From Paraburkholderia largidicola (GTDB taxonomy: Bacteria; Pseudomonadota; Gammaproteobacteria; Burkholderiales; Burkholderiaceae), in NCBI RefSeq assembly GCF_013426895.1, contig NZ_AP023174.1:2914001-2978000 (forward strand): a stretch of 64,000 nucleotides of DNA. Reading direction: 5' to 3'. The notes under the pieces are model-generated. The model was not told the origin of the DNA. It did not search any database and saw only the letters and a list, made by a program, of their open reading frames with translations. Both the position numbers and the translations under genes were made by a program. This document shows positions 1,441 through 29,654 of the stretch, piece after piece. Within the stretch, counting starts at the first letter, position 1; the number at the start of each line of letters is the position of its first letter.

Positions 1441-2098
1441 CGCTGGCATCCGCGTTATGTCTTCGTGCTTCAAGCGTCGCCCCTGTGCGGGGCGGCACCT
1501 ACTTTTCTTTGCCGCCGCAAAGAAAAGTAGGCAAAAGAAAGCGGCTAACACCGCCAGCTCTTGTTATTACCCACGGGCCCCCAACGTCCCCACGCTTCAC
1601 ACGGAAGCACACTTGTTTGCGTGGATTGCCAACGCTCTAAACAAGCGCATCACCCACTTCGAATTCCCATAAAATAGCCAGCGTCGCCAAACACTTTCAG
1701 CCCAATAGCGGCAAACTGTGTGTAGGTTGTCGCGTCGTATAGGCGAGCGCTCCTACAGAGTGGGGCGTGTACGCTACCGGTCCGGAGTGAGGTCTGTGAG
1801 GTACTACGGCCTACACACAGTTTGCCACCTGGGCGGCGGTGGACTATCTGGCGCGGCGTGCTGTGATGCGGGTGCTTGAAGTGGGTGAGGCGTACGGCAA
1901 GAGCGCCGGCAACGAACGTGAGTCACCTGGTTGCCGTGTGAAGCGTAAGACCCTTTGGGGGCCCTCAGGCAAATACTAGATCTGGCGGTGTGAGCCGCTT
2001 TCTTTTGCCTACTTTTCTTTGCGGCGGCAAAGAAAAGTAGGTGCCGCCCCGCACAGGGGCAACGCTTGCGAACCGGAAACAAACCGCGGATGCCAGCG
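1441..2098. repeat. 658-bp nested inverted-repeat element, copy A
   Basis: Non-coding element with 117-bp terminal inverted arms (1441-1557 and 1982-2098). Each arm holds a GC hairpin (CCCCTGTGCGGGG) and a 15-bp-stem hairpin (CCTACTTTTCTTTGC, loop CGCC, complement), then AAAAGAAAGCGGC and a CCGCCAG end. Inside lies a second inverted pair, GGCAAACTGTGTGT (1710-1723) and its complement (1813-1826). Asymmetric blocks set the orientation: ACGGGCCCCCAACGTCCCC at 1573-1591 on the left and GGGCCCTCAGGCAAA at 1959-1973 on the right. Short frames inside are palindrome translations and not taken as genes. It sits between two plus-strand genes. No transposase or target duplication is visible. Confidence 0.9.
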
Positions 2099-2152
2099 AC
2101 AGCAATATCAAACCACACCAGCGTTCGCAGACAAAAACCCAGGAGCAAAAAA

Positions 2153-2800
2153 ATGTTCAACGCATCACTCTTCCTGACAGCCGCAGGCGTAGGCCTCGCA
2201 GTGGCCGCCCCCGTCGGCCCGATGGGCATGCTCTGCATCCGCCGGACGTTGACGGACGGCCCCCGCGCGGGCCTCGCGATCGGTTTGGGCATAGCCGGCG
2301 GGGACGCCATCTACGGCCTGATCGCCGCGCTAGGCCTGGTGAGCGTCTCCCATTTCATGCTGGCCTACGACAAGCCGCTCCACATCATCGCAGGCCTCTT
2401 CCTGCTCTACCTCGGCATCCGCACGATGCTGCAAAAAGTCCCCGCCGACAACGGCGACAATGGCAACAACACCGAAGGAAAACTCAGCACCATAGGACAC
2501 TCAGGCGCCATAAAGGCCTTCGCCAGCGCCCTGCTGCTCACCCTCACCAATCCGCAAACGGTCATCATGTTCGCCGCCCTCTTCACGACGCTCGCGCCGC
2601 GCGGACCGTTTTCATCGAGTGTCGCGCTCACGACCGTGCTCGGCGTGTTCTGCGGATCGATCGCGTGGTGGTGCTTCCTGGTGACGGCCGTGTCGCTCGC
2701 GCGGCATGCGATCGGTCACAAGCTGCGCGTGATCATCGACCGCATCGCGGGGCTGGCGCTGGCCGTGTTCGGCGTCATCGAGGTCAAGCGCGCAATCTGA
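2153..2800 (+). CDS. LysE/RhtB family amino-acid exporter
   Basis: Small inner-membrane exporter, 215 residues, the usual length for LysE/RhtB proteins, with about six hydrophobic segments. The N-terminal signature AAPVGPMGMLCIRRTL (residues 18-33) matches the family's conserved first-helix motif, and TLTNPQTVIMFAALF (about 124-138) is the second typical block. The start is the ATG with AGGAGC seven bases upstream; the frame is open further 5' but runs into the repeat element. A- and C-ending codons, including ATA, GGA and TCA, are frequent in the first two thirds, unusual for this genome. It converges on the rarD-like gene across a 19-bp gap with a GCGGGC/GCCCGC hairpin (2811-2829). Substrate unknown. 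Confidence 0.88.
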   Translation: MFNASLFLTAAGVGLAVAAPVGPMGMLCIRRTLTDGPRAGLAIGLGIAGGDAIYGLIAALGLVSVSHFMLAYDKPLHIIAGLFLLYLGIRTMLQKVPADNGDNGNNTEGKLSTIGHSGAIKAFASALLLTLTNPQTVIMFAALFTTLAPRGPFSSSVALTTVLGVFCGSIAWWCFLVTAVSLARHAIGHKLRVIIDRIAGLALAVFGVIEVKRAI

Positions 2801-2819
2801 CCGCCTGGTAGCGGGCGCC

Positions 2820-3695
2820 CTAAGCCCGCCCAAACCGCGCTCGCCACAACCCATCGAGCGAATACAGCGCGAGCGCAATCCAGATGGCGCCATAGCCGAT
2901 CAGCTGCGCCTGCCCGAACGGCTCGCGATAGATCAGCACGCCAATGATCAGTTGCAGCGACGGCGTCACATACTGGATCAGGCCGAGCATCGACAGCGGA
3001 ATGCGCCGCGCACCCGCCGCGAACAGCAGGAGCGGCACGGCCGTAATCGGCCCGGCCAGCGCGAGCAGCACCTTCACGCCGAATGACGCCGCGCCGAATC
3101 CGCTCTCGCCATGCGACGACGCAAAAAACAGATACAGCACGGCAACAGGAAAGAGCAGCACCGTTTCGAGCGTCAACCCTTCGAGCGCGCCCAGTTGCGC
3201 CGTCTTGCGCAGCAGGCCATAGCCCGCGAAGCTGAATGCGAGCGTCAGGCTGATCCACGGCGGATGACCGTTTTCCCAGGTGAGGTACAGCACGCCGCAA
3301 GCGGCAATCGCGACGGAAAGCCACTGCACGCGCCGCAGTCGCTCGCCGAGAAACGCAAGGCCGAACAGCACGTTGATCAGCGGATTCACGAAATAGCCAA
3401 GGCTCGCCTCGACGATATGCCCCGCGTTGACGGCCCAGATATAGATGCCCCAGTTCGTCGACAGCAACAGCGCGCTCGCGGCGAAACGAACCAGCAAGCG
3501 GCGATCGCGCAGCACAGGCGCAAGCCAGCGCCACTGCTGCCGCACGGTGAGCACGATGAAGAGAAACAGCATCGACCACACCATCCGGTGCGCAAGCATC
3601 TCGACGGGCGAAATCTGGTGCAGCGATTTGAAGTAGACAGGGAAAAGTCCCCACAAGGTGAACGCGAGCAATGCGTAGGCGACGCCGGGATTCAT
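2820..3695 (-). CDS. rarD: RarD-type EamA family permease
   Basis: Inner-membrane transporter of the drug/metabolite superfamily, 291 residues with about ten transmembrane segments and two EamA halves. The start MNPGVAYALLAFTLWGLFPV and the following YFKSLHQISPVEMLAHRMVWS are typical of RarD (the chloramphenicol-sensitivity protein family). A 25-residue N-terminal extension in the open frame is arginine-rich and not family-like, so the internal ATG at 3695 was chosen. The substrate is unknown for the family. It is convergent with the LysE gene and divergent from the TauE gene. Confidence 0.85.
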   Translation of the reverse strand: MNPGVAYALLAFTLWGLFPVYFKSLHQISPVEMLAHRMVWSMLFLFIVLTVRQQWRWLAPVLRDRRLLVRFAASALLLSTNWGIYIWAVNAGHIVEASLGYFVNPLINVLFGLAFLGERLRRVQWLSVAIAACGVLYLTWENGHPPWISLTLAFSFAGYGLLRKTAQLGALEGLTLETVLLFPVAVLYLFFASSHGESGFGAASFGVKVLLALAGPITAVPLLLFAAGARRIPLSMLGLIQYVTPSLQLIIGVLIYREPFGQAQLIGYGAIWIALALYSLDGLWRARFGRA

Positions 3696-4002
3696 TTTTA
3701 TCGGTCTGCGGATGGAAAGGCACGGGGAAGCAGAGACAGAAGCGGCCCGCCAGCGGGCCGTCCGGCGCACGCTGGTCGCCCGAAACGGTTATTGTAAGCC
3801 GTCTGTCGGGACAGCCCGATGCACGGTATCCGCCCGCATTCGTACGCGGCCGCGCCGGTTTTGCGACAATAGCGGTCTTTCGCCGCGCCGCCGGCCAGCA
3901 TGAACGCCCGTTGGGATCATCTGAAAGGCAGCAGGACGCACGGCCACCGGCAAGCTCGCCTGCAACCCCCGCAACCCTTTAAGACCGTCCGCGGTCCGCG
4001 CA
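3696..4002. other. Intergenic region between divergent rarD-like and tauE-like genes
   Basis: About 300 bases that must hold the promoters of both neighbours. I see no clear operator, consensus promoter or small gene; short open frames are not supported. Confidence 0.4.
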
Positions 4003-4791
4003 ATGGCACTTCCCCATATCGATCTCCTGTATTCCGCGTCGGGTCTGTTCGTCGGCTTTCTGGTCGGACTGACGGGCGTGGGCGGCGGCTCGCTGATGAC
4101 GCCGATCCTCGTCCTGCTGTTCAACGTCCATCCGGCGACGGCCGTCGGCACGGATCTGCTGTACGCCGCCGCGACCAAGGCGACGGGCACGCTCGTGCAT
4201 GGCGTGAAGGGGTCGATCGACTGGCAGGTGACGTTGCGCCTCGCCGCGGGCAGCGTGCCCGCCGCCACGCTCACGCTGATCCTGCTGCACCGCTACGGCA
4301 TGACGTCGACGCGCGGCGGCCATCTGATCTCCATCGTGCTGGGCGTGGCGCTGCTGATCACCGCGGTCGCGCTGATCTTCCGGCCGCAACTGACCCGGCT
4401 CGCGGCTTCGCGCAAGCGCGCGACAGGCCAGGGCAGCACGCTCGCACTGACGATGCTGACGGGCGCGATCCTCGGCGTGCTGGTGTCGCTGACCTCGGTC
4501 GGCGCGGGCGCGATCGGCGTCACCGTGCTGCTGCTTCTCTATCCGATGCTGCCGACCACGCGCATCGTCGGCTCCGATATCGCGCACGCCGTGCCGCTCA
4601 CGCTGCTCGCGGGCGCCGGGCACTGGTTGCTCGGCTCGATCGACTGGTCGATGCTGTTGTCGCTGCTGGTCGGTTCGCTGCCGGGCATCGTGATCGGCAG
4701 CTATCTGTCGTCGAAAGCGCCCGAAAAGTTGCTGCGCAATCTCCTCGCGGCGACGCTGACGCTGGTCGGCGTGCGACTCGTCCTGTCCTGA
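4003..4791 (+). CDS. TauE/SafE family anion permease (sulfite exporter type)
   Basis: Inner-membrane protein of 262 residues with about eight hydrophobic segments and the two-fold repeat of the TauE/SafE family. The first repeat shows GFLVGLTGVGGGSLMTPIL (about 15-33) followed by HPATAVGTDLLYAAATKATG (about 46-65), both hallmark blocks; the second repeat carries GVLVSLTSVGAGAIGVTVL. Family members move sulfite, sulfoacetate or other small organosulfur anions, but nothing nearby fixes the substrate. A GCGGGC-N6-GCCCGC hairpin without a U-tract (4798-4815) lies between this gene and the convergent small gene. Confidence 0.88.
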   Translation: MALPHIDLLYSASGLFVGFLVGLTGVGGGSLMTPILVLLFNVHPATAVGTDLLYAAATKATGTLVHGVKGSIDWQVTLRLAAGSVPAATLTLILLHRYGMTSTRGGHLISIVLGVALLITAVALIFRPQLTRLAASRKRATGQGSTLALTMLTGAILGVLVSLTSVGAGAIGVTVLLLLYPMLPTTRIVGSDIAHAVPLTLLAGAGHWLLGSIDWSMLLSLLVGSLPGIVIGSYLSSKAPEKLLRNLLAATLTLVGVRLVLS

Positions 4792-4828
4792 CGGCGAGCG
4801 GGCATGCACGCCCGCCGCGCGTGGCGGA

Positions 4829-5083
4829 TCACTTGAAGAAGCGGCAGTTCAGGTCGGATTCGAACTGGCGGACCCAGTGGCCGGCCTTGTCCTCGTGATA
4901 CGACTGCGCCCAGCCGCCGCGCCGGATCGTCAGAAGACGCGAGTGATGCGACGCGTCGTCGGGATCGTCGCTCGCGCTGATGTCGAAATGCGCTGGCGCG
5001 AAACCGTGCCGCGCGCACACCAGCTCGAACGCCGCGCGCTCCCCGATGGGAAGGTCGGTGTAGGTGAAGCGGATCGTGTCCAT
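4829..5083 (-). CDS. Small conserved-looking protein of unknown function (84 aa)
   Basis: I do not recognise this protein. It starts at the ATG at 5083 with GGAG about nine bases upstream; the longer open frame upstream is low-quality sequence. The product is 84 residues, acidic, soluble and without a signal peptide: an N-terminal DTIRFTYTDLPIGERAAFEL, a central SASDDPDDASHHSRLLTI, and a tryptophan-rich C-terminus (GGWAQSYHEDKAGHWVRQFE) ending NCRFFK. Codon use looks like a real gene. It stands alone between tauE and the oligomer hydrolase. Confidence 0.65.
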   Translation of the reverse strand: MDTIRFTYTDLPIGERAAFELVCARHGFAPAHFDISASDDPDDASHHSRLLTIRRGGWAQSYHEDKAGHWVRQFESDLNCRFFK

Positions 5084-5303
5084 GGCCGTCGCTCCGTGAA
5101 GCATCGTCGATAGCTTCACAGTACTGCACCCGACGGGTAATTTGTGTGTCACGGCGCACAAGAACGAACGTCCGTCGCGTTTGGGCGATGGCCGGCGCAC
5201 AGTCCATTCCCGGCTGGCGAGTTACGCCCGGATTCCTGTCACGCGCCTGTCATGCGGCCCGCCGCTTCTCGTGCAACGGACGGCGAGCCGCGTCTCTATT
5301 GCA

Positions 5304-7424
5304 TCACTTCGGCACGTTCACCACGCCTGCTCCCACCTGAATCGCGTTCGAACCCGGGCTCGTCGAAATCGCGGGGAGATTGGCCGTCGTCAGCGCGGGC
5401 GCGGCGCCTGCCGTGCCGCCGCGCGGCACCGTGCGGATCACTTGCGACGGCGGCAGCGCCGCGCCGCCCTTCAGATGATTCCACATCAGGTTCAGCGCCT
5501 GGATGTTGTAGTAATGCACCGGGACGAAGCGCGTGTCGAAGCCTGCCACGCTCAGGAACGCGTCGAAGTGCTGGCCGTTCAGCACTTCATAGAACGCGAG
5601 CTGGCTCTTCGAGCCTTCCGTGATGCTGTTCATCGCCAGATACGCGCGCGACGCGTGGTTCACGGGCACGAGCGCATCGCTGCGACCCTGCACGATGATG
5701 GCCGGCTTGCCATGCAGATTCGCGTTCACGCGGATCGCGTTGACGTTCTGCTGCATGCGCGCGTCGCCCGCCGTCCACAGCGCGCGCAGACACGCGGCGC
5801 CCGTGAAGCTGCCGTCGGCCGTGGCGAACCGGTGATCCGCGCCGCCCGCCGGCGAGACGTTGTAGACGAGGTTGATGCCGTTGGTCGGCGGCACGCCGTT
5901 GCCGAGGCCGAATATGGAGGGCATCGGCGCGACGGCTGGCGCGACGCCCGCTGCGCCCGTCGTCGCGTTCGTCGTGCCGAAGCTGAAATCGCACAGGTTG
6001 TCGGTCACGCTCGACTTCGTGTACGCGTTCGCATACGTCACGGCGACGGCAGGCACGGCCTGCGAATCCCACATCGGCGCGTGCAGCAGATCGGAGTCGG
6101 TTTCGTAGCCGGCGGCGTGCAGTTTCGCGAGCGCGTCGTTGGCCTGGCTCGTCGCGTCCACGCCGCTCACGAAGCCGCCCGCCGCCAGCGATGCACAGCG
6201 TGCCGTGCGGATCGCCTGAGTGGTCGCGAGCGGCAGCGCCGTCAGATACGGTGCGCCCGTCGCCGCCGTCGCGGCTGCCGCGCACGGCATCAGCATGTTC
6301 GCGTAGGTCATGTAGTCCGCGAGCGGCGCGCCCGCCGTGGGAATCTGCGCACCGCCTTCGAACACCTTCGCCGCCGACGCCATGTTCATATTGATCTGCG
6401 GCTCGCCGACCACGACAGCCGTGATCCACCCTTGCGTGTCCTGCTCGGCGGCCGCGAGCGACGCGCCGCCGCCGTTGCTGACGGAGGCCGCGATCGTCGT
6501 GATGCTGCCCGCGCCGTAGCGCACGCCATGCTGCTGCGGGTTGTTGTTGATGGTCGGCGCGAACTGCTGGTTGAGCGCCCAGTATGCGAACTGGATCGCG
6601 TCGAGCGTGTCGTGTCCCCAGTCCTGTTCGGGGTTCTGCTGCGAGTGCGCGTGCTTGAACGCATAGCGGTTCGGAAAGCCGGCGTTGAACGCCGCCAGAG
6701 CCGCCGACGACACGTTCGCCGTGAACAGGCTCGCCGTACCCGCGCCTGCCGCCGCCGATAGCGTGCCGTTCATCAGCGTGACGAGTCCCGTCTGCATTTC
6801 TTCCGCGCCGTTGCCGCTGCCCTTGTCGGTGTAGGCGACTGCGCAGCCGCGCTTGAGGCCCCACTCGCCCGCCGCCGAAATCGCGCCGTACACGCCGCGC
6901 GAGCCCGACGACGTCGCCGTGACGATGCACGGATTGTTCGGATCGAACGTGCTGGGCACCTGGACCATCAAGGTCACGTTCTGCTGGCCGGTGCCGTTGT
7001 CGGCGTACGCGAGGTATTCGGTGCCGGCGATCTTGCCTTCGCCGAGCGTGTCGTTGCCGTTCAGATCGACGTTGGGCCCCCAGAAGCGGCCATATCCGCC
7101 ATTCGCCGACATGTCGACGAGCGCGCGGTAGTTCGACCAGATCGCGAGCCGGCGCAACTCCGCCGCTGTCGGACTCGCCGGGTTCGAGAACGAAGGCGCC
7201 GTCGCGGAACCGAGGCCCGTCTTGCCGAGCCCGGCCGTCAGCAGATCGTCGCTGTTGCCGTCGTAAGTCGTGGTGGTCACGCTTGCCGACACCACGAACG
7301 AAGGCAGTGCGTTGGCGGTCTGGTTCTGATGATCGTCGCCGTGGCCACACGCGGCGAGCAGGATCGAACCGGTGGCGAAGCAAAGGGCAGTGGCAGCACG
7401 TCTGAACAACAGTTTCCCTGTCAT
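5304..7424 (-). CDS. D-(-)-3-hydroxybutyrate oligomer hydrolase, lipoprotein
   Basis: Hydrolyses 3-hydroxybutyrate oligomers released from poly(3HB) to monomers. The product is 706 residues, the usual length for the family, and starts at 7424 with GGAG six bases before the ATG; an ATG four codons earlier has a weaker site. A signal peptide ending in the lipobox LLAAC (about residues 22-26) indicates export and lipid anchoring. Family blocks include SNYRALVDMSANGGYGRFWG, ATSSGSRGVYGAISAAGEWG, and ASVSNGGGASLAAAEQ, whose Ser is the probable nucleophile because no classic GXSXG lipase box is seen. The only other PHA-cycle genes would be outside the window. It suggests the host makes or scavenges PHB. 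Confidence 0.88.
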   Translation of the reverse strand: MTGKLLFRRAATALCFATGSILLAACGHGDDHQNQTANALPSFVVSASVTTTTYDGNSDDLLTAGLGKTGLGSATAPSFSNPASPTAAELRRLAIWSNYRALVDMSANGGYGRFWGPNVDLNGNDTLGEGKIAGTEYLAYADNGTGQQNVTLMVQVPSTFDPNNPCIVTATSSGSRGVYGAISAAGEWGLKRGCAVAYTDKGSGNGAEEMQTGLVTLMNGTLSAAAGAGTASLFTANVSSAALAAFNAGFPNRYAFKHAHSQQNPEQDWGHDTLDAIQFAYWALNQQFAPTINNNPQQHGVRYGAGSITTIAASVSNGGGASLAAAEQDTQGWITAVVVGEPQINMNMASAAKVFEGGAQIPTAGAPLADYMTYANMLMPCAAAATAATGAPYLTALPLATTQAIRTARCASLAAGGFVSGVDATSQANDALAKLHAAGYETDSDLLHAPMWDSQAVPAVAVTYANAYTKSSVTDNLCDFSFGTTNATTGAAGVAPAVAPMPSIFGLGNGVPPTNGINLVYNVSPAGGADHRFATADGSFTGAACLRALWTAGDARMQQNVNAIRVNANLHGKPAIIVQGRSDALVPVNHASRAYLAMNSITEGSKSQLAFYEVLNGQHFDAFLSVAGFDTRFVPVHYYNIQALNLMWNHLKGGAALPPSQVIRTVPRGGTAGAAPALTTANLPAISTSPGSNAIQVGAGVVNVPK

Positions 7425-7844
7425 TACCGTCTCCATTGTCTTGTTGTCGATGCCGTATCGCGCCCATCCGCTATCAGCCGACACCCAGCGGGCGCGGCTG
7501 CGGCGGCTGCTGCAATGCAAGTTTCGCGCCGATCTTCTGCCCTTCGCGGCGCTGTCGCCTGATGGCTTGCGCGACGCCGGTTCGCGCGCGATCAGGCGTG
7601 CGCGATCGCCACGCGCGTCGTCCTGATCCAGAGACATCCATAGGCATGCGACGCCCGCCGCATTACGCTGAAAGAGCCGCAAACGCCCGTCATGCTTGCT
7701 TCGCCGCGCCCGCGTGAGCGATGTCCACGTAAAGAGACGCTACGCGCGCCGTCCCGTTTCGTAGAGCAAAGCCTGCCTTTGCTCGCGTATTGCCGCGCGT
7801 TTCGACGCCCGTACCGGATGCGCGCGCAACCAAACGCGGCTCAA
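7425..7844. other. Intergenic region upstream of the oligomer hydrolase
   Basis: Roughly 420 bases between the hydrolase start and the terminator of the BON gene. Apart from the ribosome binding site at its lower end I see no gene, repeat or convincing promoter. Confidence 0.4.
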
Positions 7845-7878
7845 AACGAAACGGGCTCCCGTTAAAAACGGGAGCCCG
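7845..7878 (-). terminator. Rho-independent terminator of the BON-domain gene
   Basis: Perfect 10-bp stem CGGGCTCCCG (7852-7861) with its complement (7869-7878) and a 7-base A/T loop. On the minus strand it is followed by a T-rich tract (TTTCGTTTT). It lies about 120 bases beyond the stop of the BON gene. Confidence 0.85.
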
Positions 7879-7999
7879 CTTGTCATTCTGACCGGTAAGC
7901 ACGCCGCAACATTGCAGTGTGCCGTTCGTCAGGCGACCGGCTGGCCGCTGCCCGCGAGCCGGATCATGGTCCGTCGTGCGGCGGCGCGGCCCTTGCCGC

Positions 8000-8353
8000 T
8001 TACTGCTGCTGAACGTTGATCTTGTTCGACACCGACGTCACGCCAGCCACGCCCTTAGCGACTTCGCCAGCCTGCTGGATCTGGTTGTTGTCGGGGGCCG
8101 TGCCCGTCAGCGTGACTGCGCCGCCACGAGCGCGAACGTTGATGTTCGACACGTCGAGGCCTTGCGCCTTCGCGAGGGCCGAGCGGACCTTCTTGCCCAG
8201 CGCGCGGTTTTCCTGCTTGGCGGCCTTCGAGTTAGCGGCGGGTGCTGCCATCGTGCCGGCGGCCGTGGAGTCGCTTGCCTGGGCATACGTGTGGCATGCG
8301 ACAACCATTGCGACAACACCACCCAGTGCCTTCAGAAAATCGACCGATTTCAT
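8000..8353 (-). CDS. BON-domain periplasmic protein (OsmY-like)
   Basis: Product of 117 residues. Residues 1-26 form a signal peptide (hydrophobic core ALGGVVAMVVA, cleavage probably after AQA). The mature part is a low-complexity linker followed by one BON domain (about 50-115) with the conserved core INVRARGGAVTLTGTAPDNN and the closing VAGVTSVSNKINV. BON proteins bind envelope or phospholipid and are usually induced by osmotic or envelope stress. An AGGAG site lies eight bases before the ATG. A strong terminator follows, so it is monocistronic, and it is divergent from the TAXI gene. Confidence 0.85.
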   Translation of the reverse strand: MKSVDFLKALGGVVAMVVACHTYAQASDSTAAGTMAAPAANSKAAKQENRALGKKVRSALAKAQGLDVSNINVRARGGAVTLTGTAPDNNQIQQAGEVAKGVAGVTSVSNKINVQQQ

Positions 8354-8900
8354 ACCTTCTCCTTTTTGCTTTGGTTTGGACCGCGTTTGACTGCGGCTTG
8401 GTTACGACTACGGACGGCCCGACTGCACGCGCGCGCGAAGGCGCGACGAGGCATGGCGAGCCAGGAGCGTTGTCACGGTCTGCGAGAGAGGCATTAGAAA
8501 GGATGACGGCCGGCGCGATCCACCGCGCAGCGGTGCATGACACCGGCCGTGCGCCGCACAGTTGGCAGCGTGCCCTGGTCTCGTCAGTCTGGCCGGGTCG
8601 CGCTGCGCCAACGTCGATGCGCGGCAGCGTTGCCAATGTAATCTAGCCGCGCAAGTTCTGCAAAGGATATCGCGCGTTGTGCGCGGTTCCCGTTGCAGCC
8701 CGTTCCCGTCCGAAGCAAAACGGAACTGCCGTGCCAGGCATGCTTCAACGGCCGCCGTGCGGGCGCCGTGGGCCGCATCGCGTCTTTCCAGGTCACTTTT
8801 TGTTACGCGTTTTCGACGCCCCGAGCCCGCCGCACGTGCCGCCGGGGCGTCAATCTCCTGTACCATCGGCGCGAATTCATCCGACCGCACAAGCATTCCC
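8354..8900. other. Long divergent intergenic region (BON gene / TAXI gene)
   Basis: About 550 bases holding the promoters of both divergent genes. An open plus-strand frame runs through it into the TAXI gene, but its translation is arginine-rich and has no family character, so it is not called. No repeat or operator stood out. Confidence 0.4.
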
Positions 8901-10466: not shown

Positions 10467-10633
10467 CAGCCGTTGGCGCGTGCGCCAAACCCGCGCCGCG
10501 GCATGCGCGGCCGCGGCAACGCCATTTTGTCAAATGATGCGCACGCGGCTTGCTCCGCGTAAGATCGAAACAACCAGAACGGGCCGTAGCGGCATCGCCG
10601 GCGGCCCACCAATTCCGGCAACCGGGAGACATC

Positions 10634-11278: not shown

Positions 11279-11521
11279 GCGCGCGTCCGCGGCCATTGAT
11301 GACGTGGCGCAGCGTGGCGCCCAGCAAGTGGGCAGATCGCCGGTTGTGATGCCCGTCATAGGGCATGCGCTATGGCCCGCGCATGGCAAAACGGCCTAAG
11401 GTTATAGCTTCGCGCGCGCATGCGGCGAGGCGTCGGGCAAATGGACGCCGCTGCATCGCCATGCACCGTTCGACACAAGCATTCGAAAGCCTTCAACGGG
11501 CCATCCCCGCCCCGCCGATTC

Positions 11522-12550: not shown

Positions 12551-12551
12551 A

Positions 12552-13142: not shown

Positions 13143-13164
13143 GACGAACGCCCTCTTCTAAAGT

Positions 13165-15519: not shown

Positions 15520-15549
15520 TCTGTTGGTTCTCCGTTTCCTTTTTGTCCG

Positions 15550-18677: not shown

Positions 18678-18788
18678 GGTTGGGGTTAGGTTTTCTGCTG
18701 CGCAGGCTTTGATGTTGCCGTGTGCGCTTTTGCGCTGGCATCTGTTAGCTCGTTTCACGCGTTGGCCCGTGCGGTTTGCTCGACTTTG
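18678..18788. other. Spacer between MFS gene and repeat element B
   Basis: G+T-rich and without a gene. TTTTGCGCTGGCATCTG at about 18728-18744 is an outlying duplicate of the arm tip found at 18784-18800. Confidence 0.5.
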
Positions 18789-19446
18789 CGCTGGCATCCG
18801 CGTTTTGCTTCTGGTTCGCATGCGTTGCCCCTGTGCGGGGCGGCACCTACTTTTCTTTGCCGCCGCAAAGAAAAGTAGGCAAAAGAAAGCGGCTCACACC
18901 GCCAGCCCGTGTATTTGCCTGAGGGCCCTCAAAGGGTCTTACACTCCACACGGCAATCACGTCATACATGCTCGTTGCCAGCGCTCTTGCGACGCGCCTC
19001 ACCCGCTTTGCGCTCCCACGTTACAGCATGTCGCGCCAGACAGTCCGCCGCCGCCCAGGTGGCAAACTGTGTGTCGGCCCGAGTGCTCCACACGCCTCAC
19101 TTCGGACCGATAGCACACGCGTCCCACCTGTAAGAGCGCTAACTTATCCGTCGCGACAACCTACACACAGTTTGCCACCTGGGCGGCATCGACCATTCGT
19201 TGCCGCTTGCCTTGTTGCGGAAGTCTGACGCGGGTGATGAGCACATTCAAAGCGCTGGCAACGCACGCGAACAGGGAAGTTGCCGTGTGAAGGATGGGGA
19301 CGTTGGGGGCCCGTGGATAGGAACACGTGCTGGCGGTGTGAGCCGCTTTCTTTTGCCTACTTTTCTTTGCGGCGGCAAAGAAAAGTAGGTGCCGCCCCGC
19401 ACAGGGGCAACGCTAGCAAACCAGAAGCAAAACGCGGATGCCAGCG
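18789..19446. repeat. 658-bp nested inverted-repeat element, copy B (core inverted)
   Basis: Arms at 18789-18905 and 19330-19446, each 117 bp. Inner inverted pair GGCAAACTGTGTGT (19061-19074) and its complement (19163-19176). The asymmetric blocks are swapped relative to copies A and C: TTTGCCTGAGGGCCC at 18914-18928 on the left, and the complement of the left block of A at 19296-19314 on the right, at exactly the same distances from the arms (125 and 132 bp). Just outside the GC hairpin both arms carry the version seen on the right arms of A and C (GCGTTGCCCC rather than GCGTCGCCCC). It lies between convergent genes. Confidence 0.9.
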
Positions 19447-19498
19447 CAAGAGCCAAACCCACCGAACGGCAACACATGAACCACGAAGGCAAATAGAC

Positions 19499-19558
19499 GG
19501 ATGCCACCGCAAACCAAACCCAAAGCAAAAGCAAAAGCAAAAGCAAAAGCAAAAGCAA
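19499..19558. repeat. Hexanucleotide AAAAGC tandem repeat beside copy B
   Basis: After an outlying arm-tip copy (CGGATGCCACCGCAAACC, from 19498), AAAGC is followed by five consecutive AAAAGC units from about 19522 to 19556. The tract is just outside the right arm of copy B and about 30 bases from the 3' end of the aminotransferase gene. A related hexamer tract flanks copy C. Confidence 0.75.
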
Positions 19559-19586
19559 ACCACCCTGCAGTCGCAGACACCCCGCC

Positions 19587-20813: not shown

Positions 20814-20959
20814 GATCGGAACGCATGGAACGGGGAACAGGAACAGGAAAACGGCCCGCTGCGCGCAGCAACACCTGCGGGCGGCGGGCCGTCTTTCGAT
20901 CATTCACCCATATGTCCGATTGCGCAAGAGATGCATCCCGGTCTTTGCCTGCCGGATTG

Positions 20960-22609: not shown

Positions 22610-22734
22610 GATGCGTTCTCCAGTAAAAGGGGAAATGCGCCGGCGCGTTGCGGGCAATGGCCCGTCCCGGGCGCCGGCTACTTTCCTGACAATCGGTTCC
22701 GCCGACGGCGCGCCCGTGCCGTCGGCGCACGCGT

Positions 22735-24420
22735 TCAGACCAGCCCGACGACGAGCGGTCCCAGCAACGTCAGCAGCACGTTCGCTATCGCATACGTGAT
22801 CGCGAACGGTACGGTCGGCACCGCGCTTTCGGCCTTGTCTAGCACGCCGCCGAACGCCGGGTTCGCACTGCGCGAGCCGGACAGCGCGCCCGCCAGAATT
22901 GCCGCGTTGTCGTAGCGCAGCACGTAGCGGCCGAACAGCATCGTCAGCAGCAGCGGGACCAGCGTCACGACCACGCCGAGCAGGAAGATCGTGACGCCGA
23001 GTTGCTTGATCGTCGTCACGGCCTGCAGCCCGGAGTTCAGCCCGACCACCGACACGAACGCGGCCAGCCCGAAGTCCTGCAACAGCCTCGATGCGGCGGG
23101 CGGCATGACGCCGTACATCGGATGCTTGCCGCGCATCCAGCCGAACACCAGACCCGCGAGCAGGCAGCCGCCGCCCGAACCGAGCGTGAGCGGGACGCCG
23201 CCGATATTGACCACGACCAGGCCGATCAGCAGGCCGATCACCATGCCGATGCCCATGTAGATGAAATCGGTCTTGATCGAGTACGGCAGCTCGTAGCCCG
23301 TCGCCGCAACCGCGCGCTTCGTATCCTTCGCGGAGCCGAAGTAGGTCAGCACGTCGCCATGTTCGAGCTTCGTTTCCGGCAGGATCGGCACCGGCTGGCC
23401 GACGCGCGTGATGCTTTCGAGAAACACGCCGTGGCGCAGATCGCGGTCGACGGTTTCGCGCACTTTCTGGATCGTCGTGTGGTTCAGGCCTTTTGCCGTG
23501 AACACGGCCTGGCGCGTCTGCATGACGGCGCTGACGTCGGTGACATCCGAGATTTCGGTGCCGATCCTCGGCGCGACGGGCACCATGCCCTCGCGCCGCC
23601 CGACGACGAGCACGATGTCGTCCGCCGCGAGCACGACGTTCGGTCCCGGCTCGATCTCCTTGCCGGCGCGCCGGATTTTTTCGATCGACACGAAGTCCTG
23701 CGCGGCCATTTCGATCTCGGACACCTTGCGCCCCGCCGCCGGCCCGACCTTGAACGCGCGTCCGACCAGTTCGGGCAGCGCCGCCAGTTGTCCCGGCGCG
23801 CGCGATGGCGTGCCGCCCGCGAGCTTCGCCTCGGCGTCGAGCGCGGCTGAGCGCAGGTCGCGGCCCATGAACTTCGGCAGGATGTTCACGCATACGATGA
23901 TCGCGCCGAGCGAGCCGAACACGTACGTCACCGCGTACGCAATCGCGACGTCCGACTGCAGCGACTTCACCTCGTCGGCGGGCAGGCCGAGACGCGCGAT
24001 CGCGTCGCCCGCCGTACCGATGATCGCCGACTGCGTGAGTGCGCCGCCCGCGAGCCCCGCCGCCAGCCCCTTGTTCAGATGGAAAATCTTCGCGCAGATG
24101 AGGACGGTGATCAGCGCCGAAATGGCGAGGAACAGCGCCATCGCGATCTCGCGCAAGGTCTTGCGGTTCAGCGAGTTGAAGAAGCCCGGCCCCGAGTCGT
24201 AGCCCACCGCGTAGATGAAGACCGCGAACATCACGGCTTTCACGCCGTTGTCGATCGACACGCCCGCCTGGCTGATCACGACGGCCGCCAGCAGCGAGCC
24301 GCCGACGCCGCCCAGTTGAAACTTGCCGAAGTTGATCTGGCCGATGAAGTACCCCACGGCCAGCGACAGGAACAGCGCTATTTCTGGTGACTTGTGAAAG
24401 ATGCTGTGTATCAGGTCCAT
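22735..24420 (-). CDS. aspT: Aspartate:alanine antiporter, AspT type (paralogue 1)
   Basis: Inner-membrane exchanger of the aspartate:alanine exchanger (AAE) family, 561 residues. The N-terminal half (about 1-170) is hydrophobic: EIALFLSLAVGYFIGQINFG, then FIYAVGYDSGPGFF and GGALTQSAIIGTAGDAIARL. Two cytoplasmic RCK_C-like domains occupy about 200-370. A second membrane half follows from about 380 with GSGGGCLLAGLVFGWMRGKH and SGSRSANPAFGG. Paired with aspD 125 bp downstream. Start MDLIHSIFHKSPE at 24420. Confidence 0.9.
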   Translation of the reverse strand: MDLIHSIFHKSPEIALFLSLAVGYFIGQINFGKFQLGGVGGSLLAAVVISQAGVSIDNGVKAVMFAVFIYAVGYDSGPGFFNSLNRKTLREIAMALFLAISALITVLICAKIFHLNKGLAAGLAGGALTQSAIIGTAGDAIARLGLPADEVKSLQSDVAIAYAVTYVFGSLGAIIVCVNILPKFMGRDLRSAALDAEAKLAGGTPSRAPGQLAALPELVGRAFKVGPAAGRKVSEIEMAAQDFVSIEKIRRAGKEIEPGPNVVLAADDIVLVVGRREGMVPVAPRIGTEISDVTDVSAVMQTRQAVFTAKGLNHTTIQKVRETVDRDLRHGVFLESITRVGQPVPILPETKLEHGDVLTYFGSAKDTKRAVAATGYELPYSIKTDFIYMGIGMVIGLLIGLVVVNIGGVPLTLGSGGGCLLAGLVFGWMRGKHPMYGVMPPAASRLLQDFGLAAFVSVVGLNSGLQAVTTIKQLGVTIFLLGVVVTLVPLLLTMLFGRYVLRYDNAAILAGALSGSRSANPAFGGVLDKAESAVPTVPFAITYAIANVLLTLLGPLVVGLV

Positions 24421-24606
24421 CGTGCCCTCTCAGAGAAAACGCACGCGGGCGCCCCGCGCGAAACGCAGCAGACGACGTGGCACTACCGTCCGCAACCCCT
24501 GCCCGCACGATCCTTTCGGTCACTTGGGCATTTCGATGTTGCTGTCATTCGCTTCTGTTTTCCTTGTCCGTTCGCAATCCCGCGCCTCGCATGCCGATCG
24601 CGCCTA

Positions 24607-26295
24607 TCAGTGCGCAAACTGAGCGGCCAGCCCCACGACGACGGGGCCCATCAGCGGCAGCAGAATGTTCGACAACGCGTAGGTGATCGTGTAGCCGATG
24701 ACGGGCGTCGAATTGCCCGTCACGCCGACCAGCGCGCTGATCGCGGGCGTGCTGCACTGCTGGCCGGCAATCGCGCCGAGCAGCATCGGCGCGTCGAGCT
24801 TCAGGAACATCCGGCCGATCCACAGCGACAGCAGTCCCGGCACCAGCACCATCAGAATTCCGACGACAGGCAGCGCGAGTCCGTATTCGCGCACGAGCTT
24901 GATCGCATCCGGTCCGGCCGACAGCCCGACCGCGGCGATGAAGGTCGCCAGCCCAAAGTCCTTGAGGATTTGCGCGGCGGCGGGCGGCAGCGAGCCGACG
25001 AGGGGATAGTGCGAGCGGATCCAGCCGAACAGCAGCCCGGACAGCAGGCACCCGCCGCCCGTGCCGAGCGCGAGCGTGACGCCGCCGAAGGTGCCCGACA
25101 GCCGCCCGATCGCCATGCCGATCAGCACGCCGAGGCCGAGATAGACGAAATCCGTTTTCAAGGTGGCGGGCAGCAGGTAGCCGAGCCGCTTCGCGCCGCG
25201 CAGCACATCCACCTTCGCGCCGACCAGCGTCAGCACGTCGCCGCGGTTCAACTCGGTGCCGGGCAGCGCGGGCACGCGCGACTCCAGCCGCGTGACGGCC
25301 GCGATATAGATGCCGCGCCCCTGTTCCGGGTCCGCGCGCTCGCGTAGCTGGCGGATCGTCGCGCCGTGTGCGTCCTTGCGCGTGAGCACGACGTCGACCA
25401 TATCGGCGAGTGCCGTCGAAAAGTGATGGCCCGATGCGACTTCGTCGCCGATCGACGGCGCAGCGGCGACCAGCGCCTCGCGCCTTCCGCCGACCAGCAC
25501 GAGATCGCCCGCCGCGAGCATGAGATCGGGCGCGACGCAAAGCGACGCGCCGCCGCGCTCGATCTGCTCGACCGTCAGGTTGTGGCCGTATCGCGCCTCG
25601 AAGGCGCCAATCGCGACACCCGCCGCCGGACCGACGCGGAACGCGCGCCCCACCAGCGCGGGCGCGGCGAGCCGCTCCCCTTCCCCGAGCGAGTCGCCGC
25701 CGCCGAGTTGCCGCCATACGCGCTCGGCTTCGTCGCGCAGATTCACGCGTAACAGCAGTGCGGCGAACTGGCTCGTGAACAGCACGATCGTGATAAGCCC
25801 GAACAGATAGCTGACGCTGTAGGCGGTGACGATATTCGCCTGCAGGCGCAACGTCTCGGCTTCGGCCATACCGAGCTTCGCGACGGCTTCCGAAGCCGTG
25901 CCGATCACGGCCGATTCCGTCGCCGCACCTGCCAGCAGCCCGGCTGCCGTGCCTGGATCGAGATGCAGCAGCCAGACGGCGAGCATCACGAGGGTCAGCA
26001 CCGAAACGATTTCGACCACCGACAGCAGCCCGTAGCGCCAGCCGCGCCCGATATTGGCAAAGAACTGCGGCCCGCCCGTGAAGCCGAGCGCGAAGATGAA
26101 CAGCGCGAACGCGATGTTCTTGAGATCGGGGCTGATGCGCGCCCCCGTTTGCCCGAGCAACAGCGACACGATCAGCGTGCCGCACACGCCGCCGAGCTGG
26201 ATCGGGCCGATCTTGAACGAGCCAATCAGATAGCCGAGTGCAAGACTCGCGAACAGCGCAATCTCCGGCTGCGACTTAAGCAATTCGGCGACCAT
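24607..26295 (-). CDS. Aspartate:alanine antiporter-like protein (paralogue 2)
   Basis: Second AAE-family exchanger, 562 residues, with the same order as its neighbour: membrane half (EIALFASLALGYLIGSFKIG; FIFALGFTGGPQFF; GAATESAVIGTASEAVAKL), two RCK_C-like domains, and a second membrane half (GTGGGCLLSGLLFGWIRSHY; QQCSTPAISAL). The last block, QQCSTPAIS, differs from the SRSANPAFG of paralogue 1 in the probable substrate path, so its specificity may differ. Start at the ATG at 26295, preceded by GGGA. First gene of the likely four-gene operon, 186 bp upstream of aspT. Confidence 0.85.
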   Translation of the reverse strand: MVAELLKSQPEIALFASLALGYLIGSFKIGPIQLGGVCGTLIVSLLLGQTGARISPDLKNIAFALFIFALGFTGGPQFFANIGRGWRYGLLSVVEIVSVLTLVMLAVWLLHLDPGTAAGLLAGAATESAVIGTASEAVAKLGMAEAETLRLQANIVTAYSVSYLFGLITIVLFTSQFAALLLRVNLRDEAERVWRQLGGGDSLGEGERLAAPALVGRAFRVGPAAGVAIGAFEARYGHNLTVEQIERGGASLCVAPDLMLAAGDLVLVGGRREALVAAAPSIGDEVASGHHFSTALADMVDVVLTRKDAHGATIRQLRERADPEQGRGIYIAAVTRLESRVPALPGTELNRGDVLTLVGAKVDVLRGAKRLGYLLPATLKTDFVYLGLGVLIGMAIGRLSGTFGGVTLALGTGGGCLLSGLLFGWIRSHYPLVGSLPPAAAQILKDFGLATFIAAVGLSAGPDAIKLVREYGLALPVVGILMVLVPGLLSLWIGRMFLKLDAPMLLGAIAGQQCSTPAISALVGVTGNSTPVIGYTITYALSNILLPLMGPVVVGLAAQFAH

Positions 26296-26870
26296 GTTCC
26301 GATTTCCCGGCAAAGCGGATCGTTGTATGAATCTTTTTAAAAATGTGGCCCGCGATAATCCGCACGGCAATTAGTCGCGTTAATTGAAGCGCGTGAATAT
26401 CTACCGGAATTAACCGGCCATATTCGAGGCGGATGTAATGCGCCGCACTGACGGATTTACGTCAGACGAAATGGCGCGAGCGGTGAGAAGCCTTGAATCA
26501 GCTTGTGTTGCTTCTGTTGACAGACATCGTTCCCTCGCAAAGTTGTCGAACAACCGGAACACGATTCGTGCAGCCGAAGGCTTTTTTATGTCCGCATTTG
26601 AAGCGTGCGGAAATCGTTTAGACCGTTTCCGCTATATGACAGAAATGCCAGCCTTTTTACAATTTCGAAATAGCGTCGTCGTTTTAATAGATATTGTAAT
26701 TGCCAGCGACTGTCAATATTATTTTTGTGCCGGATCTGCAAAATTTATGAACCCTCAGATTGTCTGCAATCTGACGGTACGACACCCGCAAAGGCCGACG
26801 CAGAAAGCTGCCGCACGCCACAGCCGGGTCAACGACGCGCGGCAGCACCGCGCTAGACGAGGGCGCCACC
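26296..26870. other. AT-rich divergent intergenic region (aspT2 / LysR)
   Basis: About 575 bases, much richer in A+T than the neighbouring genes, especially 26640-26760. It must hold promoters for the aspT2 operon and the LysR gene. An open frame from 26438 runs out of frame into the LysR gene and has no family character, so it is not called. The LysR-type dyad inside is listed separately. Confidence 0.5.
26755..26774. promoter_or_regulatory. LysR-type binding dyad upstream of the regulator gene
   Basis: Perfect inverted repeat TCAGATTG-TCTG-CAATCTGA, containing the T-N11-A pattern of LysR boxes (ATTGTCTGCAAT). It ends 96 bases before the ATG of the LysR gene at 26871, a usual place for an autoregulatory site. 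Binding is inferred. Confidence 0.55.
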
Positions 26871-27860
26871 ATGAATCAGATCTACGCCATGCGGGTCTTT
26901 GTCCGGGTCGCCGAAACACAGAGCTTCAGGCGAGCGGCCCAGCAACTGAAAGTATCGAACGCGCTCGTGACGCGCTCGATCGCCACACTCGAAGCGCACC
27001 TGCATGCGCGCCTCATTAATCGCACGACGCGCAACCTTTCGCTGACCGAAGCCGGCACGCATTATCTGGAAGGTTGCCGCGGACTGCTCGAGGAACTCGA
27101 TCATCTGGAAGGCTCGGTCGCCGGCACCGAGCGCGAGCCGGGCGGCACGCTGCGCGTCGTCGCGACGGGCGCACTGTCGGCCCAGGCACTCACGCAACTG
27201 CTCGACGGTTACCGCCGGCGTTTTCCGAAGGTGCGTATCCGGCTCACGCTCGCCGAGCGCCTGCCGCATCTGATCGAAGACGGCTATGACGTGGGCCTGT
27301 TCATTGCGGGTCCGTCGGCGGCGGGCGCGTCGGCGGATACCGACAGCGTCGAACTGTCGTTCGCGACGCAACGCCTCGTGCCGTGCGCCGCGCCGTCGTA
27401 TCTGGCCGCGCGCGAGGAGCCGCGCCATCCCGATCATCTGGCGCTGCATTCGTGCATCGCGACGCCTTCCGAGCAACGCGGCCCGACCGTCTGGCATTTC
27501 ATCGAAAGCGACGGCGACGCGCAGCCTGTCACGCTCGATCCGTCGTACATGGTCAACAGCCCGCTGCTGGTGCGGCTCGCGGCGATTGCCGGAATGGGCG
27601 TCGCGGTGCTGCCCGAGCCGCTCGTCGCCGACGACTTCGCAACGGGCGCGCTGAAGCGCATCATGCAGGATTACACCGTCGACGAATCGCAGGCCAAGGT
27701 GTCGCTCGTCTATCCGCGCCGCCGTCATCTGCCCGCGAAAACCCGCGCGTTCGTCGATTACACGCTCGAGCATGCGGGTTGTCCCGCGTCAGCGCTGCCT
27801 GCCGACGCGCATGCGATCATCCCGCACGACCTGCATCCCGCCGCGCAGCACGCTTCGTGA
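26871..27860 (+). CDS. LysR-family regulator (CrgA/DhaR-like group)
   Basis: Regulator of 329 residues. Winged helix-turn-helix at about 1-60: MNQIYAMRVFVRVAETQSFR, RAAQQLKVSNALVTRSIATL, and HLHARLINRTTRNLSLTEAG, typical of the subgroup that often controls an adjacent oxidoreductase. The effector domain runs from about 90 to 300. A dyad sits 97 bases upstream. The D-lactate dehydrogenase gene follows on the same strand after 63 bases, so the two may be co-transcribed; the aspT2 operon is divergent on the other side and could also be a target. Confidence 0.87.
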   Translation: MNQIYAMRVFVRVAETQSFRRAAQQLKVSNALVTRSIATLEAHLHARLINRTTRNLSLTEAGTHYLEGCRGLLEELDHLEGSVAGTEREPGGTLRVVATGALSAQALTQLLDGYRRRFPKVRIRLTLAERLPHLIEDGYDVGLFIAGPSAAGASADTDSVELSFATQRLVPCAAPSYLAAREEPRHPDHLALHSCIATPSEQRGPTVWHFIESDGDAQPVTLDPSYMVNSPLLVRLAAIAGMGVAVLPEPLVADDFATGALKRIMQDYTVDESQAKVSLVYPRRRHLPAKTRAFVDYTLEHAGCPASALPADAHAIIPHDLHPAAQHAS

Positions 27861-27923
27861 GCCACGCGCGGTTGCTCACGCATCGATGACGCCCCGCGGG
27901 CGTCCATCAGGAGGCCAGTGACC

Positions 27924-28916
27924 ATGCGCATGATTTTGTTCAGCAGCCGCCAGTACGACATCGACACGTTCACCGAGGCGAACGCCGCGTTCAGCTTCGA
28001 GTTGCACTTCCAGGAGTCGCATCTCGAAGCGGACACGGCCATCCTCGCCGAGGGTTACGACGTCGTGTGTCCGTTCGTCAACGATCTGGTCGACGCCGCC
28101 ACGCTCGAACGCCTGCATGCGGGCGGCACGCGGCTGATCGCGCTGCGCTCGGCGGGCTTCAATCATGTCGATCTCGCGGCGGCGCAGCGGCTCGGCATCG
28201 GCGTCGTGCGCGTGCCCGCCTATTCGCCGCACGCGGTCGCGGAGCATGCGGTCGGGATGATCCTGGCGCTGAACCGCAAGCTCGCGCGCGCTGTCGCCCG
28301 CACGCGCGAAGGCGACTTCTCGCTGAACGGGCTGCTGGGTTTCGACCTGCACGGCAAGACGGTCGGCGTGATCGGCACGGGGATCATCGGCCGCTGCTTC
28401 GCGCGGATCATGGCGGGGTTCGGCATGCAGGTGCTCGCGCACGATCCCGGGCCGCCCGCCACTGAGTTGCTGGCGCTCGGCGGGCGCTACGTGCCGCTCG
28501 ACACGCTGCTCGCGGATTCGGACATCGTGAGCCTGCATTGCCCGTTGCTGCCGTCTACGTATCACATGATCGATCGCCACGCGCTCGCGAAGATGAAGCG
28601 GGGTGCGATGCTGATCAACACCGGGCGCGGTGGGCTAGTTGAGAGCAACGCGCTGGTCGGCGCGCTCAAGAGCGGCCAGTTGGGGCATCTCGGGCTCGAT
28701 GTGTATGAGGAGGAAGGTGGGATCTTCTTTGAGGACCACTCGAATCTGCCGTTACAGGATGACGTGCTCGCGCGGCTTTTGATGTTTCCTAATGTGATCG
28801 TCACCGCGCATCAGGCTTTTTTCACACGCGAGGCGATGACGGAGATCGCGCAGACGACGCTCGGGAATGTGGAGGCGTGGCGGGATGGGACGCCGAGGAA
28901 TGTGGTTCAGGTGTAG
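27924..28916 (+). CDS. ldhA: D-lactate dehydrogenase (fermentative, NAD-dependent)
   Basis: Reduces pyruvate to D-lactate with NADH in the cytoplasm. The 330 residues align by eye along the whole length with E. coli LdhA: LFSSRQYDIDTF at the start, VCPFVNDLVDA, IALRSAGFNHVDLAAAQRLG, VRVPAYSPHAVAEHAVGM, GKTVGVIGTGIIGR (Rossmann motif, about 145-158), and VTAHQAFFTREAMTEIAQTT near the end. A perfect AGGAGG at 27909-27914 sets the ATG at 27924; a GTG at 27918 is too close to it. The last 150 bases turn G+T-rich before repeat element C. Confidence 0.9.
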   Translation: MRMILFSSRQYDIDTFTEANAAFSFELHFQESHLEADTAILAEGYDVVCPFVNDLVDAATLERLHAGGTRLIALRSAGFNHVDLAAAQRLGIGVVRVPAYSPHAVAEHAVGMILALNRKLARAVARTREGDFSLNGLLGFDLHGKTVGVIGTGIIGRCFARIMAGFGMQVLAHDPGPPATELLALGGRYVPLDTLLADSDIVSLHCPLLPSTYHMIDRHALAKMKRGAMLINTGRGGLVESNALVGALKSGQLGHLGLDVYEEEGGIFFEDHSNLPLQDDVLARLLMFPNVIVTAHQAFFTREAMTEIAQTTLGNVEAWRDGTPRNVVQV

Positions 28917-28963
28917 TTGGTTTTTGGTTTTTGCCGGCCGGCGGCTGGAGGGTGCTTGCTGTT

Positions 28964-28999
28964 TTGCGCTTGCGCTTGCTCTTGCGCTTGCTCTTGCGC
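28964..28999. repeat. Hexanucleotide TTGCKC tandem repeat beside copy C
   Basis: Six consecutive hexamers of the TTGCGC/TTGCTC type run directly into the left arm of element C (CGCTGGCATCC). The stretch 28917-28963 before it is G+T-rich spacer without a gene. Confidence 0.75.
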
Positions 29000-29654
29000 T
29001 GGCATCCGCGTTTTGCTTTCGTGCTTCAGGCGTCGCCCCTGTGCGGGGCGGCACCTACTTTTCTTTGCCGCCGCAAAGAAAAGTAGGCAAAAGAAAGCGG
29101 CTCACACCGCCAGAGCTTGTTCTTATCCACGGGCCCCCAACGTCCCCATGCTTCACACCGCAACTTCCCTGCTGGCATGCGTTGCCAGCGCTTTGAATGT
29201 GCTCATCCCCTACGTCAGACTCCCGCACAAAGGCCAGCGGCAGCGAATGGTCTACGCCGCCCAGGTGGCAAACTGTGTGTAGCTTATCGCGTCGTATGCG
29301 TTAGCGCTCTTACGGGTGGCACGCGTGCGCTATCGGTTCGAAGTAAGGGGTGCGGAGCACTTGGGCCGACACACAGTTTGCCACCTGGGCGGCCGTGGAC
29401 TTTCTGGCGCGGCGTGCCGAGACGCGGGCACATGAAGCGGGTGAGGCGTACAGGGAGAACGTTTGCAGCGGGCGCGGAATGGCGTGTTGCCGTGTGAAGC
29501 GTAGGACCCGCTGGGGGCCCTCAGGCAAACACAAGAACTGGCGGTGTGAGCCGCTTTCTTTTGCCTACTTTTCTTTGCGGCGGCAAAGAAAAGTAGGTGC
29601 CGCCCCGCACAGGGGCAACGCTAGCAAACCAATAACATCACGCGGATGCCAGCG
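28997..29654. repeat. 658-bp nested inverted-repeat element, copy C
   Basis: Arms at 28997-29113 and 29538-29654 (117 bp each). Inner inverted pair GGCAAACTGTGTGT (29267-29280) and its complement (29369-29382). Same core orientation as copy A: the ACGGGCCCCCAACGTCCCC block at 29129-29147, 132 bp from the left end, and GGGCCCTCAGGCAAA at 29515-29529, 125 bp from the right end. Between convergent genes. No transposase and no visible target-site duplication. Confidence 0.9.

Follow-up and report, generated by a model that had tools for sequence, protein, structure and literature searches.

REPINs, the hairpin-forming doublets of repetitive extragenic palindromic (REP) sequences, consist of two conserved palindromic units in inverted orientation; they are extragenic, number many per genome, keep the length of their spacer and have insertion sequences (IS) land in them, and compensatory changes between their left and right sides are reported to be common (PMC3116915). 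The element described here is present three times in a stretch of 64,000 nucleotides from Paraburkholderia largidicola (contig NZ_AP023174.1, positions 2,914,001 to 2,978,000 of the forward strand; hereafter the window) and resembles REPINs in all of these features except the last; its inverted arms are seen in 32 and in 90 aligned full copies. It also differs in size, being 658 bp long compared with ~80 bp for the doublet, and in position, since it prefers the 3' ends of genes whereas REP doublets are reported to be randomly distributed over extragenic space (PMC3116915). It has no short REP of ~20-60 bp with a spacer forming the hairpin, its core halves being without covariation; its core lacks compensatory left/right changes and is, moreover, shuffled and inverted. 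No HUH-competent REP-associated tyrosine transposase (RAYT) was found for it.

Miniature inverted-repeat transposable elements (MITEs) and other non-autonomous IS derivatives are likewise dispersed and non-coding with terminal inverted repeats, but the present element shows no target-site duplication (at the one locus available) and has no autonomous relative in the part of the genome inspected. The bacterial interspersed mosaic elements (BIMEs) of Escherichia coli are mosaic composites of palindromic units in intergenic DNA; here, in contrast, there is one unit type of fixed size, and the mosaicism lies inside the core. Bi-directional intrinsic terminators, and the uptake-sequence terminators of Neisseria and Pasteurellaceae, are similarly stem-loops concentrated at 3' ends and between convergent genes, with a single repeated sequence that serves many genes (PMC1590033, PMC1852404). 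They differ from the present element, which has two terminator-like arms ~500 bp apart, a recombining core between them and an offset U-tract. The Bor repeats of Bordetella, from the same order, are stem-loop repeats near coding regions that are described as REP-like (PMC1590033), a comparison made by description only. A topical literature search, by titles and abstract openings, gave no description of the element, and searches with the letters of the arm hairpin or its variant motif returned unrelated papers only, most subscription journals and bioRxiv lying outside their reach. We file the element with the dispersed palindromic repeats, having a layout like that of REPINs and MITEs and the position of a bi-directional terminator. 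It is probably best understood as a dispersed, non-coding composite inverted repeat of REPIN/MITE-like type but larger, with terminator-like arms and a core that is exchanged and flipped by ectopic gene conversion.

All three window copies measure 658 bp by nhmmer and lie where the first-pass annotation of this DNA had placed them: copy 1 at 1441..2098 (+ strand, 721.6 bits), copy 2, in opposite orientation, at 18789..19446 (- strand, 736.6 bits) and copy 3 at 28997..29654 (+ strand, 709.2 bits). That annotation had described a non-coding element whose arms form hairpins and to which no transposase is linked; such an element is real, and its copy number is high. Over 1450 bp, a flank on contig 3 is 100% identical to Paraburkholderia sp. 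22B1P and 99.7% identical to P. largidicola F2, which places the strain in that species or very near it. The 9.47 Mb genome of the strain itself (five contigs; G000 below) has 342 sites of the arm hairpin at ≤3 mismatches, compared with none for a reversed control, so that we estimate ~170 copies. Among the first 100 of these hairpins most pair at a spacing of 506-514 bp, and a first look in which 40 of 228 candidates were scored gave 40 near-full-length places of 637-661 bp. The exactly constant length claimed by the annotation holds for the three window copies; over 90 unique copies from four sources (G000, the congener G384 and two P. caribensis plasmids) the length runs from 652 to 663 bp with a mode of 660, after a filter of 646-674 bp had taken out truncated and IS-split copies. 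Other Paraburkholderia differ in core length, and the distance between the 33-mers of the two arms varies there from 471 to 764 bp (12 pairs). Element length is specific to the lineage.

What carries our interpretation is the behaviour of the core at fixed sites. G384 is 93% identical to G000 across the 1001 bp left of copy 1, and all 11 G000 loci compared (10 full, one IS-split) hold a whole or split element in G384. For the nine full orthologous pairs, core identity is 64.5-82.0% with a mean of 73.6%, as against 73.7% for paralogues (45 pairs) and 73.7% for all cross-species pairs (110 pairs), despite an identity of 88-95% in the flanks. Inversion is seen in four of these nine pairs. The same behaviour is seen at closer range between the P. 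caribensis strains 852011 and MWAP64, where 17 full pairs have a mean core identity of 91.1% (84.1-98.5) between flanks that are 96.9-99.7% identical, one pair being inverted; MWAP64 is occupied at all 22 of the loci examined in 852011 (22 of the 23 full copies known there), five of them with partial or interrupted copies. Between strains 22B1P and F2, six of 15 full pairs show 0-1 differences and nine show 11-140, none being inverted (three more 22B1P elements were left out, two because their partners are insertion-split and one because its right flank has no partner in the set). In several of the nine changed pairs the differences are concentrated in a single stretch and the adjoining part of the element is identical, for example at element positions 105-402 (plus one difference at 30) or 353-552.

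For many of the differing stretches a candidate donor can be pointed to. Over 26 strain pairs (the 17 from P. caribensis and the nine changed 22B1P/F2 pairs), 74 of 100 clusters of at least four differing sites have at least one of their haplotypes in another copy, compared with 43.4 ± 3.2 (maximum 50) in column-permuted controls, which preserve the make-up of the columns but not the relatedness of the copies. Both haplotypes are found in other copies for 34 clusters, compared with 6.2 in these controls. The donor set excluded any copy whose identity to one or other member of the pair was above 97%. We conclude that copies exchange core sequence with one another, sometimes with inversion, through ectopic gene conversion or an equivalent process whose ends lie inside the element, and that the drift of the core comes largely from this exchange and not from slow point mutation under a fold.

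The exchange itself, at fixed loci and sometimes with inversion, is the first step of the mechanism that we propose. In a second step, copying from other copies would hold length and landmarks constant while sequence varies, because the repair template would be of equal length; pairing would start in the near-identical arms, and since these flank the core in inverted orientation, inversion would be allowed. A wider version of this idea is that the ~170 cassettes form a single intragenomic recombining population, in which the near-invariant arms provoke breaks or pairing, so that the core at each fixed chromosomal site keeps being overwritten, or inverted, with any of the other copies as the source, and in which the arms insulate the neighbouring genes; this version we put forward tentatively, as possible but on present evidence somewhat improbable.

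How is the element built? From the outside it comprises a G/T-rich border, a tip GCTGGCATCCGCG, a variable segment of ~22 bases, a GC hairpin, an A/T-rich hairpin of 15 bp, then CAAAAGAAAGCGGC and a core of ~420 bp with an inner inverted pair, followed by the mirror image. In copy 1 the 117-bp arms of the first-pass annotation (1441..1557, + strand; 1982..2098, - strand) can be read directly from the sequence, running from CGCTGGCATCC to CCGCCAG. The arms of copy 2 (18789..18905, +; 19330..19446, -) and copy 3 (28997..29113, +; 29538..29654, -) are likewise inverted, with the 117-bp limit set by analogy with copy 1; a repeat finder, which also gives the copy-to-copy matches, puts the terminal inverted arms at 144-147 bp. 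Within copy 1, the consensus scan gives inward terminator-like GC hairpins at 1476..1496 (+; also found by DNA folding and followed by ACCTACTTTTCTTTG) and 2043..2063 (-). The perfect 15-bp hairpins lie at 1498..1531 (+; CCTACTTTTCTTTGC / GCAAAGAAAAGTAGG, from sequence, repeat finder and DNA fold) and 2008..2041 (-; sequence and repeat finder). The core at 1558..1981, the part of the element that is reshuffled among copies, contains the annotated inner pair GGCAAACTGTGTGT, ~270 bp from each end, with its left member GGCAAACTGTGTGTAGG at 1710..1726 (+) and its right member at 1810..1826 (-), both from sequence and repeat finder. The outer borders extend over 1352..1440 (+, G/T-rich, from the stop codon of a gene to copy 1, by sequence and gene context) and 2099..2152 (-, A/C-rich on the + strand, by sequence and flank composition). 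Such borders often begin directly behind a stop codon and are strand-asymmetric, with 3-14% A and 67-81% G+T on the strand entering the element (168 flanks).

In an alignment of 125 copies (121 distinct), drawn from six sources, the 67 columns of the arm hairpins include one variable column on the left and three on the right, compared with 363 of 422 in the core. The GC-hairpin motif has six matches in the window, where 0.01 would be expected in shuffles, and positions 1475-1532 fold as DNA with -24 kcal/mol (z -7.3). In both arms of copy 1 an inward hairpin followed by a U-rich tract scores, and 1300-2250 as a whole contains eight terminator-like sites, compared with 1.7 in shuffles; a scan of the same interval found no promoter-like site. 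The features of an intrinsic terminator are thus represented by a strong GC-rich hairpin and a U-rich tract that is offset by several nucleotides instead of directly adjoining it.

The position of the copies fits such a signal. Between convergent genes we find 22 of 40 unique G000 copies, where 6.5 would be expected from intergenic length (p = 2e-8); tandem gaps hold 16 (24.2 expected) and divergent gaps two (9.3 expected). The 40 copies are a non-random set, 30 being the best matches to copy 1 and the others coming from the window and C1:440-760 kb; gene calls were made with a codon score of our own and not taken from annotation, expectations derive from 384 kb of genome, and four loci without a gene call were dropped. 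Five of the 11 G384 copies are convergent, six tandem and none divergent. Of the 3' ends that face an element in G000, 21 of 60 are 40-60 bp away from it, compared with none of 20 5' ends. Genus-wide, 61 of 94 arms have a gene within 600 bp, and 45 of these are turned towards its 3' end; the other 33 arms have no gene within that distance or lie too near an end. As the third step of the mechanism, each arm would act as an intrinsic-terminator-like stop, through its GC hairpin and U-rich tract, for RNA polymerase arriving from outside, so that one element could isolate two converging genes; such a role would account for both the constraint on the arms and their position at 3' ends. Judged from these sequence features, the chances are about even that the arms owe their preservation to halting transcription that comes in from either flank.

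The arm design extends well beyond this strain. The genome collection has at least 120 stretches with the exact 33-mer GCCCCTGTGCGGGGCGGCACCTACTTTTCTTTG, in a scan that may omit the window's own relatives, and among the 80 matches listed all hosts are Paraburkholderia or Burkholderia sp. These 80 of at least 120 loci yield 94 arms, with 12 inward pairs (471-764 bp) and no outward pairs within 1500 bp. In a survey of the family at ≤2 mismatches, the hairpin is present in 43 of 398 genomes and 2 of 25 genera, including 31 of 60 genomes of its own genus; within the genus its number is patchy, with none in 29 of the 60 and 342 and 354 in two, draft genomes giving undercounts. Cores are largely unlike between species groups. 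Related arms are found in Caballeronia NK8 (a full element) and Burkholderia arboris (one arm, with a different base to the A/T hairpin) and, from further families of the order, in G571, G507 and G450, and a weak case is seen in Pseudoalteromonas; the sequence of the GC stem is different in G571 and G450. When 12 examples from other species were scanned, the inward hairpin with U-rich tract scored in nine, six of which had it in both arms. The same-layout element of G571 (L159-L162) has extra inverted repeats in its core and G/T-rich borders.

Several observations weigh against our interpretation. For the exchange, the copies sampled offer no donor for 26 of the 100 clusters; in L175 and L178, two of the nine changed 22B1P/F2 pairs, the differences are scattered and not tract-like; and two of the nine G000/G384 pairs, scored as non-inverted, fit both orientations about equally. 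The borders show no enrichment of Chi GCTGGTGG (1 compared with 2.5 in shuffles, 168 flanks), and no break-inducing signal was found there. For the terminator role, the U-tract begins a few bases past the stem (ACCUACUUUU), so that by the usual rule the arm is not a strong intrinsic terminator; the inward signal does not score in the Caballeronia NK8, G507 and Pseudoalteromonas examples; and terminators alone would leave a ~420-bp core of fixed length unexplained. On the two P. caribensis plasmids, moreover, 35 placed copies divide into 18 convergent, nine tandem and eight divergent, so that divergent gaps are not avoided there, and these copies are not independent, because they belong to orthologous sets. 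Finally, the strain and species comparisons revealed no clean insertion event with defined ends, and a mobile origin is therefore something that we infer.

Could the element nevertheless be mobile at present, as a non-autonomous unit of REPIN or MITE type moved in trans by an unlinked transposase, with the arms as its recognition sites and their terminator look a by-product? The high and patchy number of hairpins across the genus, the near-invariance of the arms and the presence of similar arms around unrelated cores in other species and genera would all suit such a unit, as would one locus where G384 has an element and G000 has none. At this sole presence/absence site, however, the difference replaces ~90 bp and shows no target duplication, and the complete occupancy in both locus comparisons, 22 of 22 in MWAP64 and 11 of 11 in G384, argues against continuing movement. 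The enzymes offer little either. G000 has two matches to the RAYT-like Y1_Tnp family, L141:965-1672 (-) and L334:399-1115 (-); neither protein (HAYALMPGAVQLLV, HAWVLMPDAVQFLV) contains the HUH motif, and the family was matched in 18 of 18 tested congeners drawn from the 29 without the hairpin. A RAYT link is thus not supported. No element lies within 3.5 kb around the first match, the one whose surroundings were scanned, and no mobilising enzyme was found by a search that covered the Y1_Tnp family only. We regard present mobility, through an unlinked enzyme as the first-pass annotation had suggested for one alternative, as doubtful; as a fourth step in the conversion mechanism, an earlier mobile phase, by now rare, may have spread the copies.

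An autonomous long version was considered and rejected: the three pairs spaced 1613-1614 bp apart hold an inserted transposase frame adjoining a hairpin. In all three (L031, L032 and L033, at G000 C1:487.6k, 1374.9k and 2196.4k) a 341-codon frame sits at the same insertion place just after the arm hairpin, in what we take, from its sequence features, to be an IS30-type element. These three long variants among the first 100 hairpins, being presumed IS30-type insertions, also set the element apart from MITEs, and no autonomous transposon with matching ends was seen among those 100 of the 342. Insertion sequences in or beside hairpins also occur in G384, at C1:579417-581361, 603155-606583 and 631164-633204; three insertions interrupt the loop of the hairpin and a fourth lies further inward, and their transposases are presumably of IS481, IS66 and IS256 types, again by sequence features. 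Solo hairpins fared no better as candidates. No solo unit is among the eight inspected (L034-L041): L040 has both hairpins, and each of the remaining seven has a second arm that is truncated, interrupted or degenerate, either as a whole or in its hairpin. Between two convergent stop codons at G000 C1:620121-620280 lies a remnant in which the element has collapsed to its outer tips, looking as if the GCCCC repeats in the two arms had bounded a deletion. Tip-type units of ~64 bp, at intervals of ~104 bp, adjoin full copies elsewhere, for example at G000 C2:1983530-1983801.

A different account of the core differences is that ordinary homologous recombination brought in the allelic locus from other strains, and that conversion between copies is not involved. 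Species like Paraburkholderia may well exchange DNA, which makes such imports plausible, and tract-like differences would be expected from import too. The differences, however, are mostly inside the element: flanks remain 96.9-99.7% identical where cores fall to 84%, and in one element, whose flanks are 98-99% identical, 140 of 662 positions differ. Donor haplotypes, moreover, occur in non-allelic copies, and orientation flips. Allelic import is accordingly an improbable source of the pattern.

The first-pass annotation took the constant geometry of the element as a sign of selection on a folded DNA or RNA. Were the whole 658 nucleotides maintained as one long hairpin or cruciform, the two halves of a core should be matched to each other within each copy; their complementarity is instead equal within copies (0.6003) and between them (0.6002), with a permutation mean of 0.6051 (p = 0.99). 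Copy 1 does match its own reverse complement at 72% over the whole length, the arms fold strongly (z -7.3 as DNA, as above), and a short outer variable stretch of the arm is more complementary within copies (0.766) than in permutations (mean 0.735, p = 0.001). Yet the core stretch 1595-1710 folds like shuffles (z -0.7, DNA), the RNAalifold consensus of the halves yields mainly the arm hairpins and short helices, and Rfam has no match at gathering score in the copies. A single long fold is contradicted for the core and, as an explanation of the geometry, very unlikely. The annotation had named variable length together with absence of covariation as what would speak against it; covariation is indeed absent from the core, but length is held within the lineage.

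That the arms are DNA-uptake-type signals doubling as terminators, by analogy with the inverted uptake sequences of Neisseria and Pasteurellaceae, would suit their near-invariant sequence, 3'-end position and terminator-like hairpin, but is the most improbable alternative of all, given 342 hairpins where at least 1,000 copies are usual and a conserved block of ~67 bp where 9-11 nt are usual (PMC1852404).

If the wider version of the conversion idea is true, a bacterium would harbour a stable, site-fixed gene-conversion network whose arm design recurs in Burkholderiaceae and other families with unrelated cores. The family offers a natural test bed for gene conversion: the cores turn over far faster than the flanks at fixed sites, so that conversion rate, tract length and inversion are measurable across strains. 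The arms are possibly a new kind of two-way transcription stop and, if they do terminate transcription, one repeated module would have come to serve the 3' ends of numerous pairs of genes. From the hairpin count, the element would fill ~112 kb, or ~1.2% of the genome. Short frames within the repeat could get called as genes, and some copies stand at the contig ends of draft genomes, so that assemblies are affected.

The absence of coding sequence in the element, as first annotated, is borne out. No clear codon periodicity is seen in the variability of 32 copies, the three consensus frames give no Pfam family at the cut-off (one sub-threshold hit, E 0.17), and single-nucleotide gaps occur in the core; a coding core is rejected on these grounds. 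A phage search gave no match to the element. At gathering score, Rfam has two hits in the window, neither of them inside the copies. A ZMP/ZTP riboswitch is present at 48661-48775 of the window (- strand, 62.1 bits), and a 49-bp repeat occurs as two tandem copies, 94% identical, at 59745-59842.

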